Shown here: positions 49,065 to 52,909 of the stretch, piece by piece
How the letters are laid out: every line of letters starts with the position of its first letter
Position numbering within the stretch: position 1 is the first letter of the stretch
Assembly: GCF_017355935.1 (NCBI RefSeq)
Contig: NZ_JAFIQT010000001.1
Location: 1,860,001-1,924,000 of the forward strand
DNA from: Telluribacter humicola
GTDB lineage: Bacteria; Bacteroidota; Bacteroidia; Cytophagales; Spirosomataceae
DNA length: 64,000 bases
Direction of reading: 5' to 3'
Notes under the pieces: generated by a model
Databases searched by the model: none
Seen by the model: only the letters and a program-made list of their open reading frames with translations
What the model was told of the DNA's origin: nothing
Translations under genes and position numbers: made by a program

Positions 49065-49136
49065 GCACCCGTAGTTCAATGGATAGAATTTCGGTTTCCG
49101 GTACCGACGATAGGGGTTCGAATCCCTTCGGGTGCA
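49065..49136 (+). tRNA. tRNA-Arg (anticodon CCG)
   Basis: The cloverleaf folds completely by hand. Acceptor GCACCCG (49065-49071) pairs with CGGGTGC (49129-49135), followed by discriminator A. The D arm is GTTC/GAAT. The anticodon stem TCGGT/ACCGA encloses loop TTCCGGT, giving anticodon CCG (49098-49100), which reads CGG. The T arm has loop TTCGAAT. No CCA is encoded. A terminator follows immediately. Confidence 0.96.
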
Positions 49137-49137
49137 C

Positions 49138-49174
49138 AACCCGCTGATCATATCAGATCAGCGGGTTTTCTTTT
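49138..49174 (+). terminator. Terminator after tRNA-Arg
   Basis: A 12-bp perfect stem AACCCGCTGATC / GATCAGCGGGTT with a 6-nt loop, followed by TTCTTTT, two bases after the tRNA. Confidence 0.92.
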
Positions 49175-49450
49175 ATGTAGCCAATCCGGCAACGGCTCAT
49201 ATATGGAGCTGTTTTTGCTAAAGTGAAGTATCTTGAGGGAGATATTTGTATCGTTTACTCAATACAAGGTACTTTTTTTATCAATATCCACATCCTGGTC
49301 GTTTAGTAGTAGAGGCTGTTGTTCAGCAGGGTAAGAAAGTACTGAACTAACCTAGGAGAGTTGGAGCAGAAATGGGCTTAGTAGTAGGTTGAATACTGAG
49401 CAGAAACGGCCTATTATGAAGCAGTTTAAAACACTCAAATCACAATTAAG

Positions 49451-50302
49451 ATGAGAAAGAGCTTTACGCTGGTTTTATTGATATGGATTACCGTAGGATG
49501 TAAGAATAATGATTCTGATGCACCTGTGCCGATGGAGCAGAGCGTTCATCTGCGCCTTGGAAACCCTACTAACGCCAAAACCGATGATATTGTAGATGCT
49601 GACAACTTTTTGATGGTGAGGCAGCAGTATGCCCTGAGCTATAATAGGAGTAAGGGACATGCCAACTGGGTGTCCTGGGAGCTCACCAGGGACTATCTGG
49701 GAGAGGGCGGACAGCAGCAGGATTACCTGGCTGATCCTACATTGCCGGATGGCTGGTACAAGGTGCTGCCCAGTGACTTTACCAACTCCGGTTTTGTAAT
49801 GGCAAACCTGTGCCCCCAGGCTGATCGATCCAAGTCGGTTGTAGATATAACGGCTACCAATTTGATGACTAATGTAATACCACAAGCATCTGAACTGAAC
49901 CGCCAGTCCTGGACCAAGCTGGAAGAGTACTGCCGTGATCTGGCTAAAAAGGGGTATCGCCTGTATATAATAGCGGGTACCTATGGCATAGGCGGAGTAG
50001 GTAGCAAAGGGGTTGTACTCCGGATTAAGAATCAGATTAATGTACCTACCCGCATTTACAAGGTCATTGTGGCTATTCCGGATGGAGGTACGATAGAGCA
50101 GATTACCGAATTCACCCCGGTAATAGCGGTTGATTTTCCCAACTGGTCCAGCATAGTAAATAATAAGAGCTGGAACAGCTTTATCACTACCCCGGACGAT
50201 ATTGAAAAAAACGCGGGAGTAGCCTTCTTTACAAACTTACCGGAACCACTTCGTAATAAACTCAGGACCGTTCGCTTTGATCCTGCGAAATTGCCACTGT
50301 GA
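49451..50302 (+). CDS. NucA/NUC-type non-specific nuclease-fold lipoprotein with lost DRGH motif
   Basis: A 283-residue lipoprotein: lipobox with C17 in WITVGCKNN. The domain matches DNA/RNA non-specific endonucleases of the NucA type: SYNRSKGHANWVSWEL, then NSGFVMANLCPQADRSK, NLMTNVIPQASELNRQSW and TKLEEYCRDLAKKGYRLYII. In NucA-type enzymes the second segment reads G-Y-D-R-G-H-x-x-P-x-A-D-R. Here the DRGH is V116-M-A-N119, so the general-base histidine is Asn, while the metal-binding Asn region (ELNRQSW) is kept. The protein is probably catalytically dead or altered. The nearby frame is intact, so this is not a simple frameshift. Confidence 0.83.
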   Translation: MRKSFTLVLLIWITVGCKNNDSDAPVPMEQSVHLRLGNPTNAKTDDIVDADNFLMVRQQYALSYNRSKGHANWVSWELTRDYLGEGGQQQDYLADPTLPDGWYKVLPSDFTNSGFVMANLCPQADRSKSVVDITATNLMTNVIPQASELNRQSWTKLEEYCRDLAKKGYRLYIIAGTYGIGGVGSKGVVLRIKNQINVPTRIYKVIVAIPDGGTIEQITEFTPVIAVDFPNWSSIVNNKSWNSFITTPDDIEKNAGVAFFTNLPEPLRNKLRTVRFDPAKLPL

Positions 50303-50871
50303 TAACAGGTACATGGGCAGGGTAAATAACGCCCGTACATATACATAGTATTTGGTAGTTGGTACCGTTAAACTTCGTATGCCTTCTAGACCTTAGCCCG
50401 AAGGAGCTGTACTACTTTGAAGCAGTAAAAGCCACTGGTGAAGGAGGCTACCGTAGTGATGAGATAACAGGTAACTAGTATAGTCATAGAAGTAGCCATT
50501 AAAGATCTTGCACCAATACCCTGGCTGACCATCATGTTTGAGTTACCGTACTACTGGTCAGCCTGATTATTTTCTACTAAAAAATCATACCCCTGCACCT
50601 GCTTCACCTTTTCCCTTTTAACTTTTTGTAACTGCTGTTGCTATAATGCCGCAGAAGTTCTTATAAGTAGCACTTAGGCTACAAGTCTGGTGTACACTTT
50701 TGTGCCAGATAGTGCGTAAAGCGTATAAACTTAAGGCTAACTACTACCGAAGAATCATAATATCTGTATGTACAATAGGAGATAGCTATTTGCTGATTTG
50801 TTTGTATCTTTTTATTGATACATTTATACGCAATTCTTTTGGGTTTAGTAGTACGACCACACCAGCACACT
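50303..50871. other. 569-bp spacer with one hairpin, no convincing gene
   Basis: No conserved ORF was found between the nuclease-like lipoprotein and the small membrane protein. It holds a 9-bp hairpin with a T-rich tail at 50523-50575. The frame 50700-50888 appears random. Confidence 0.5.
50523..50575 (+). terminator. Possible orphan terminator hairpin
   Basis: GGCTGACCA (50523-50531) pairs with TGGTCAGCC (50555-50563) across a 23-nt loop, followed by TGATTATTTT. The nearest upstream gene ends 220 bp away, so it may end a long 3' UTR or a small RNA. Confidence 0.45.
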
Positions 50872-51102
50872 ATGCAGAAAAACCCTGATACTTCACGGCG
50901 TACCTGGCCCTATGTAGCCGCTATCGCCGTGACAAATTCTCTACTCTGGTTACTGATAGGCTGGGGGGTCACCTATATCTTCCCCTCGATTCCCTTCTGG
51001 ATTTTTCTAATTGTAGGGCCGGTGGCCGGTCTGATTGTCGCTATCGCCCTGTATCTGTTCATCAACGCAAAGACGGGTAAGAGAGGAGAAGATCATCTCT
51101 GA
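50872..51102 (+). CDS. Small two-helix membrane protein, unknown
   Basis: A 76-residue protein starting MQKNPDTSRRTW, with two transmembrane segments (about residues 13-33 and 41-63) and a basic tail (NAKTGKRGEDHL). The ATG at 50872 is preferred over an upstream start that would add a poorly conserved stretch. No known family is recognised. It stands between the nuclease-like lipoprotein and an unknown small protein, all on the same strand but with wide gaps. Confidence 0.66.
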   Translation: MQKNPDTSRRTWPYVAAIAVTNSLLWLLIGWGVTYIFPSIPFWIFLIVGPVAGLIVAIALYLFINAKTGKRGEDHL

Positions 51103-51253
51103 TAGCTTCTGCCTGACTTCAGGTGCCTAAAATAGATAATTCTGAATAGTAGTACTACGGCGAAAAATTATTTTTGGTCTAGGATAGTAAGTGGCATTTT
51201 CTTTGCTATTTTAGCTATTGTAAAGAAGTAAACAAATCACCCTCCCTATCAAT

Positions 51254-51571
51254 ATGAGTAGATTAGATGATTCGTTAGCTCTAGCCGAGAGCTTGATCAG
51301 GCACGCCATGACCAGCAGGCCCAGTAGCATTCAGTTTGCAATAAGCCAAAGTAACATTAGTGTCATCACGCTGGGTATCTATTTTAATGAATACCGAGGC
51401 TTGGCATTGATGTACGGACGTCCTTTCGTTGAGCAGATCATTAATTATTTTGAAGGCAGAGAAGAGTACGAGGCCTGCGCCTTTATTCTGAGACAACTGG
51501 AAGATCTGCGTTTTGAGCTGAATTATATTCCACAGATGGCCGGTGTTCAGCTACAGGCTTTACCGGCCTGA
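51254..51571 (+). CDS. Small soluble protein of unknown function
   Basis: A 105-residue protein without signal peptide or membrane segment. It is acidic and helical, with YFNEYRGLALMYGRPFVEQIINYF and EYEACAFILRQLEDLRFELNY. I do not recognise it. It lies 67 bp from the convergent rarA gene, with a hairpin between the two. Confidence 0.6.
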   Translation: MSRLDDSLALAESLIRHAMTSRPSSIQFAISQSNISVITLGIYFNEYRGLALMYGRPFVEQIINYFEGREEYEACAFILRQLEDLRFELNYIPQMAGVQLQALPA

Positions 51572-51582
51572 CAAATTAGTGG

Positions 51583-51640
51583 AGCAGACTACCTGCCAAA
51601 CCTGTATAGATAGCTGGTTGACAAGTAGTCTGCTTTATTA
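51583..51640. terminator. Bidirectional hairpin between the 105-residue gene and rarA
   Basis: AGCAGACTAC (51583-51592) pairs with GTAGTCTGCT (51625-51634) around a 32-nt loop that can form an inner stem, followed by TTTATT. It separates convergent genes. Confidence 0.6.
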
Positions 51641-52909
51641 GTACTCGTACCATTCTCCCCACCACTGTTGTAGCTTCTTTCGGATTTCTTCTTCCCGGGC
51701 ATTGCGGCCGGGCTCAAATAGCTTTGTACCTTTTAGTTCGTCGGGCAGAAAGTTCTGTAGGGCAAAGTTGCCTTCATAGGCGTGAGCATAGTGGTACTCT
51801 TTGCCGTAGCCAATCTCCTTCATCAGCTTAGTAGGCGCGTTGCGCAGGTGCAGGGGAACGGGCAGGTGTGCCGTTTTCTGGGCCAGCGCTATGGCGTCGT
51901 TTATGGCCGTATAGCTGGCGTTACTCTTAGGTGAAGTAGCCAGGTACACCGCTACCTGCGACAGAATGATGCGGCTCTCGGGATAGCCAATCATCTTGAC
52001 GGCCTGCATACAGGCATTAGCCATGATAATGGCCGTGGGGTTGGCATTACCTATATCTTCCGAAGCCAGGATCAGCATGCGCCGCGCTATAAATTCAGGA
52101 TCTTCTCCGGCAACGATCATACGCGCCATCCAGTACAGGGCCGCGTTGGGATCACTGCCTCTTATCGACTTGATAAAGGCAGATATAATATCATAATGCT
52201 GCTCGCCGGATTTGTCGTAGCGGGCTATATTCTGCTGGGCCGTCTGGGTTACCAGCTCGTCCGTTATTACCACCTCCGGCTTTTCACCCTCGGCTAGTAC
52301 TACCAGTTCGAGCAGATTGAGCAGTTTGCGCCCATCTCCACCAGACAGCCGGAACAAGGCATCGTACGACTCAACCTTGATATTTTTCTTCTGTAGCCAC
52401 TCGTCCTTTTCCAGCGCCCGGCTCACCAACTCTTTCAGCTCCTTTTCGCCAAATGCCTCCAGTATGTACACCTGACAACGCGACAGGAGCGCCGAATTGA
52501 CCTCAAACGAGGGATTCTCGGTCGTAGCACCTATGAGTGTCACCTGGCCCTTTTCTACGGCCCCCAGCAGCGAATCCTGCTGGCTCTTATTGTAGCGGTG
52601 AATCTCATCAATGAACAGGATGGGGGAGAACAACCCCGATGGCCTTGAAAGAACTTCCCGCAGGTCCTTCACTCCGGAGTTAATAGCACTCAGGCTATGA
52701 AAAGGGCGGCGGGTAGCTTCAGCCATCAGCAGGGCCAGGGTAGTCTTACCGACACCGGGAGGCCCCCACAGGATCATAGAGGGAATGGTGTTGTTCTCAA
52801 TGGCCTTTCGCAGCGGTCTTCCTTTACCCAGTAGCTTTTCCTGACCTACGTAGTCATCAAGGGTACGTGGTCGGAGGCGTTCGGCAAGGGGTGTGGTCAA
52901 TGGGTTCAT
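51638..52909 (-). CDS. rarA: Replication-associated recombination protein A (AAA ATPase)
   Basis: A 423-residue protein. RarA/MgsA signatures are PLAERLRPRTLDDYVGQEKLL, Walker A GPPGVGKTT (49-57), Walker B LFIDEIHRYNKSQQD and sensor ATTENPSFEVNSALLSR, followed by the C-terminal tetramerisation domain with DPNAALYWMARMIVAGEDPEFIARR. It acts at stalled replication forks with SSB and RecA. It is a single gene in front of the SDR gene on the same strand, 65 bp apart. Confidence 0.96.
   Translation of the reverse strand: MNPLTTPLAERLRPRTLDDYVGQEKLLGKGRPLRKAIENNTIPSMILWGPPGVGKTTLALLMAEATRRPFHSLSAINSGVKDLREVLSRPSGLFSPILFIDEIHRYNKSQQDSLLGAVEKGQVTLIGATTENPSFEVNSALLSRCQVYILEAFGEKELKELVSRALEKDEWLQKKNIKVESYDALFRLSGGDGRKLLNLLELVVLAEGEKPEVVITDELVTQTAQQNIARYDKSGEQHYDIISAFIKSIRGSDPNAALYWMARMIVAGEDPEFIARRMLILASEDIGNANPTAIIMANACMQAVKMIGYPESRIILSQVAVYLATSPKSNASYTAINDAIALAQKTAHLPVPLHLRNAPTKLMKEIGYGKEYHYAHAYEGNFALQNFLPDELKGTKLFEPGRNAREEEIRKKLQQWWGEWYEY

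Follow-up and report, generated by a model that had tools for sequence, protein, structure and literature searches.

A NucA-fold lipoprotein with a replaced active site, a candidate pseudonuclease, beside tRNA-Arg(CCG) in Telluribacter humicola

The closest described system is the Anabaena nuclease NucA (PDB 1zm8 and 2o3b), a member of the Endonuclease_NS family (PF01223). In an active NucA-type nuclease, the DRGH motif provides the general-base histidine (His124) together with Asp121 and Arg122, Arg93 contacts the scissile phosphate, and the metal is held by Asn155 with Glu163 in a beta-beta-alpha-metal fold. In human EndoG, single mutations at residues equivalent to these catalytic ones reduce the kcat of 0.07 per s to 2.5e-6 per s (H141A) or 2.8e-5 per s (R139A); the entry for R110A is n.d. 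(PMC2653514). Mutation of the EndoG residue equivalent to R122 made the Km lower, not higher (PMC2653514). Loss of catalysis is also known from the fungal RNase II pseudonucleases (Ssd1), in which it took place repeatedly, sometimes following a gene duplication, and the protein was kept as a binder (PMC8097288). For the DRGH family, our limited search of the open-access literature found no description of a natural pseudoenzyme.

We analyzed a 64,000-nucleotide stretch of the T. humicola genome (the window), in which an intact gene encodes a NucA-like lipoprotein (Table 1). The product scored 124.7 bits against PF01223 (cut-off, 23) and matched Anabaena NucA (1zm8) over 240 residues (phmmer, 1.6e-56; about 39% identity). 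An AF2 model built from 29 sequences had a mean pLDDT of 89.3, with the majority of the domain above 90, and its best PDB matches were 2o3b and 1zm8 (target-normalised TM, 0.95 to 0.96; rmsd, 1.5 A), so that the predicted fold is the beta-beta-alpha-metal nuclease fold over the whole domain. By sequence and predicted fold, therefore, the 283-aa protein is a NucA-type DNA/RNA non-specific endonuclease. Unlike NucA, it is predicted to be lipid-anchored; a surface lipoprotein is a plausible reading because the signal peptide ends in Cys17 and this Cys is conserved in 91% of the relatives aligned.

Table 1. Features of the candidate pseudonuclease gene and its surroundings (window positions; residue names in brackets follow NucA numbering).
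Feature	Position	Strand	Basis or remark
tRNA-Arg(CCG), left hotspot edge	49065..49137	+	ARAGORN; site of an integrase element in a sister genus, where the tRNA end is repeated over 16 bp
tRNA-Arg-rarA interval, here lipoprotein gene and small ORFs	49138..51637	.	About 60 bp and empty in a sister genus (G154)
NucA-like lipoprotein (putative pseudonuclease) CDS, 283 aa	49451..50302	+	Intact ORF; PF01223 E=5.6e-36; dN/dS 0.055 vs ortholog
Lipoprotein signal peptide, last residue Cys17 (T-V-G-C)	49451..49501	+	Sequence; Cys in 91% of 33 DRGH relatives
Residues 88-95, QQQDYLAD, in place of R93/F-R-P-D motif (R93Q, F97Y, R98L, P99A)	49712..49735	+	Alignment with 33 DRGH relatives including NucA
Residues 116-119, V-M-A-N, in place of D121-R122-G123-H124	49796..49807	+	Alignment; V-M-G-N in ortholog
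Asn141 (N146), kept	49871..49873	+	Alignment
Asn150 (N155, Mg2+ ligand), kept	49898..49900	+	Alignment
Glu158 to Arg162 (E163, R167), kept	49922..49936	+	Alignment
105-aa ORF, genus-restricted small family	51254..51571	+	In tRNA-Arg-rarA interval; dN/dS 0.135
rarA/mgsA AAA+ ATPase, right hotspot edge	51638..52909	-	PF12002 2.3e-70

The preliminary description of this DNA had noted VMAN in place of DRGH within an otherwise NucA-type reading frame, and both this and its assignment of the catalytic His to Asn (H124N) were borne out by the alignment with the 33 DRGH relatives from which all replacements were called. The motif reads G-F-V-M-A-N-L-C-P-Q-A-D-R (residues 114 to 126; positions 49790 to 49828). 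Its further statement that the flanking motifs remain held for N146, N155, E163, R167, and E249, so that the metal ligand Asn150 is in place together with Glu158, but not for the upstream motif, in which R-Q-D-N-F-R-P-D of NucA is Q-Q-Q-D-Y-L-A-D, nor for S128, N138, F142, and P152. The phosphate-contacting Arg93 is Gln88 in this protein and in its ortholog from a second congeneric species (see below). In NucA numbering, both carry R93Q, F97Y, R98L, P99A, D121V, R122M, H124N, S128Q, N138I, F142N, and P152S/M, and among the five replaced at R93, R98, D121, R122, and H124 are all catalytic residues of one side of the cleft, as judged by alignment; several second-shell residues have changed along with them. 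The loss is thus wider than first stated. Among 72 positions that were at least 90% conserved, 11 were changed in both orthologs, and 10 of them fell in the active-site half of the protein, residues 88 to 152 (Fisher p = 6e-4). The controls with an active-type site (L007, L008, L018, and L021) had 0 or 1 such changes in this region.

A catalytic His displaced to another site would have argued against loss of function. Only His33 and His70 are present, and, since both are common to the active paralogs, neither is a displaced catalytic His; the catalytic motif appears to have been lost without migration, as in a pseudoenzyme. Given that three residues with EndoG equivalents are changed at once, catalysis of the family type is very unlikely by analogy. 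A profile-based annotation would call this protein an endonuclease, which is almost certainly wrong; on alignment and model, it belongs to the family by sequence and by fold but lies outside the active enzyme class. Weak residual or different chemistry is possible on these residues. An altered active site with a different substrate, formed by the V-M-[AG]-N cleft and the retained N155/E163 metal site, would accord with the conservation of the replaced residues between species and the survival of the metal side. We consider such new chemistry quite improbable: the cleft (Val, Met, Ala, Asn, and Gln) holds no candidate general base or nucleophile, positive evidence is lacking, and the conservation is equally compatible with binding.

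The ortholog in the second species (G001) is syntenic, 86% identical, and reads GFVMGNLCPQTDR in the motif region, within a segment colinear with the window over about 20 kb. The dN/dS between the two genes was 0.055, at a dS of about 1.4 that is near saturation and for two species; the neighboring housekeeping genes gave similarly low values, 0.051 (DUF2721), 0.034 (NUDIX), 0.027 (RarA), and 0.175 (SDR). By this two-species comparison, purifying selection on the gene is strong, as in a maintained pseudoenzyme. Of the replaced cleft positions, 12 of 15 were identical between the species, for which neutrality would give a rough probability of 1e-8 to 1e-4 that varies with the chance of identity one assumes; the replacements themselves appear constrained. 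The Ala for Gly at motif position 3 (residue 118) is limited to the window species and must be independent of the Ala in the NMAQ paralog described below, because the ortholog (VMGN) keeps Gly. Frameshift or assembly error was ruled out, as a single base separates each new amino acid from a DRGH codon set of the AGG type, and V, M, and N recur in the ortholog. Near-identity in two species makes a non-cutting job probable, and, with two species, the depth of conservation is limited. These data agree with the earlier proposal of a pseudoenzyme, in that the catalytic residues of one side are gone, no displaced His exists, and selection is strong, and they answer its concern about a lone decayed copy.

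The explanation that we favor, with about even confidence, is an exported, lipid-anchored NucA-fold pseudonuclease that does not cleave, is selected for a non-catalytic role, presumably binding, and originated as mobile cargo. With the general base (H124N), D121, and the phosphate-side R93, R98, and R122 replaced, cleavage by the family mechanism would be lost, and the remodeled neutral cleft together with the retained Asn/Glu metal site would serve as a binding surface. The ligand would most likely be extracellular nucleic acid or phosphate-bearing fragments, held and not cut. With three basic residues gone from the cleft, the protein may have ceased to bind nucleic acid, and, by analogy, this loss speaks against tight nucleic acid binding in the old mode, a point qualified by the EndoG Km result and by the survival of the metal ligand N155 and of R167. 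The net charge of the domain is -1, which does not exceed that of active relatives, and charge was accordingly dropped as uninformative on DNA binding. The likeness to Ssd1 lies in a nuclease fold that lost catalysis in a protein that was retained; Ssd1 differs in having an unrelated fold and in being an RNA-binding protein with a demonstrated function.

Homologues with a comparable motif at the VMAN position, for which the preliminary description had asked, were found in the congeneric ortholog and nowhere else as a genuine match: the pattern G[FY]xM[AG][NQHK][LMI]CPxxD, which is blind to other losses, matched once in 84,980 species genomes, in an unrelated frame with stops. About 77 distinct relatives from the family and order, which were best matches and not a random sample, all carried DRGH. 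A wider VMAN family was ruled out, since a search of the family (223 genomes) and a sample of the order (391) gave DRGH relatives only, among those read. A protein search for relatives in viral contigs confirmed none; a DRGH pattern scan was the source of distant relatives for the structure alignment. One DRGH relative (L130, G174:C4) has Val for R93.

Active NucA-like lipoproteins from within the genus and the family (L007, L008, L009, L018, and others) share the lipoprotein signal and domain length at about 50 to 61% identity. In contrast to these proteins, which keep DRGH and R93, the dead members comprise the VM[AG]N pair of window protein and ortholog and a second PF01223 lipoprotein of the window genome (L010/L004, G000:C23:180125-180964), which has NMAQ for DRGH (SGFNMAQLCPNMDR). 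This second protein has also lost Q150, R156, and the metal ligand N155 (to His), is more degenerate than the window protein, and sits on a long branch of the tree; no ortholog with NMAQ was found in G001. It shares 10 lost conserved positions with the window protein, mostly changed to different residues, and a single catalytic loss common to both lineages was neither supported nor rejected by the tree (p-AU 0.25). In G001, an active-type (DRGH) NucA-like lipoprotein gene is broken (L011/L014, G001:C10:121032-121879), with its frame disrupted 3' of the active site. That broken paralog and the long branch of L010, along with the loss of the active site and a location in an integration hotspot from which element genes are gone, would fit the gradual decay into a pseudogene of a nuclease once carried by an element. 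For the window copy, such decay is contradicted by the dN/dS of 0.055, the intact frame in two species, the synteny, and the constancy of the replaced residues, and we regard it as very improbable; it may apply to L010.

An active DRGH paralog is present in both species (L008 and L009; the window genome copy is on C17). The dead protein might therefore pair with or shield this paralog, or compete for a nuclease inhibitor, and so tune nuclease activity at the surface. Its fold and surface appear retained in the model, and Serratia nuclease and EndoG are dimers. NucA itself is reportedly active as a monomer, however, the two genes are unlinked, and nothing points to an interface; we judge a regulatory partner to be unlikely.

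The origin of the pseudonuclease gene is suggested by its position. It starts 314 bp downstream of tRNA-Arg(CCG) and precedes rarA in position order. In G050, the tRNA-Arg-rarA interval is occupied by an integrase element, with the tRNA end repeated over 16 bp, and in G176 by unrelated genes with a duplicated rarA 3' end; from these gene contents, it is an integration hotspot across genera. Elsewhere in the genus, L010 is located downstream of tRNA-Arg(CCT), and G001 carries an integrated element of about 19.4 kb at tRNA-Arg(TCT) (G001:C23:1811-21281; L170 and L079), with a 46-bp direct repeat of the tRNA end, the active lipoprotein gene L007 in the tRNA-proximal position, a tyrosine integrase gene at the opposite end, and, within the element, a tape-measure-like gene. 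In other genera, no tRNA adjoined the NucA-like gene at any of the loci checked. No att repeat was found flanking the window insertion. Given the hotspot position downstream of tRNA-Arg(CCG), the gene probably arrived as cargo of a mobile element and lost catalysis later. NucA-like lipoprotein genes would travel in the genus as cargo of tRNA-Arg-integrating elements, and the window copy would have been fixed beside tRNA-Arg(CCG) before the species split.

The tRNA-proximal L007, in an element with an integrase and tail-like genes, could also indicate a surface-exclusion or defence lipoprotein of mobile elements whose catalysis is dispensable. To this we assign a low probability, as PADLOC gave no match, a functional link is missing, and element genes were not recognised around the window copy. 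A more specific form of the favored reading, a domesticated tRNA-Arg-cargo pseudonuclease particular to this genus, whose conserved V-M-[AG]-N cleft has gained a specific ligand or a chemistry that is new, with one or perhaps two losses of catalysis as the minimum within the genus, is put forward only tentatively and is in our estimate rather doubtful. If the favored reading is confirmed, the locus would offer a small bacterial system in which to ask how a dead nuclease serves the cell that carries it; active paralogs encoded by the same genome would be the controls, and the path by which mobile cargo became a fixed gene is clear. The 105-aa ORF in the same interval belongs to a family that, among the 223 family genomes, occurs in the window genus only, with three paralogs per genome.
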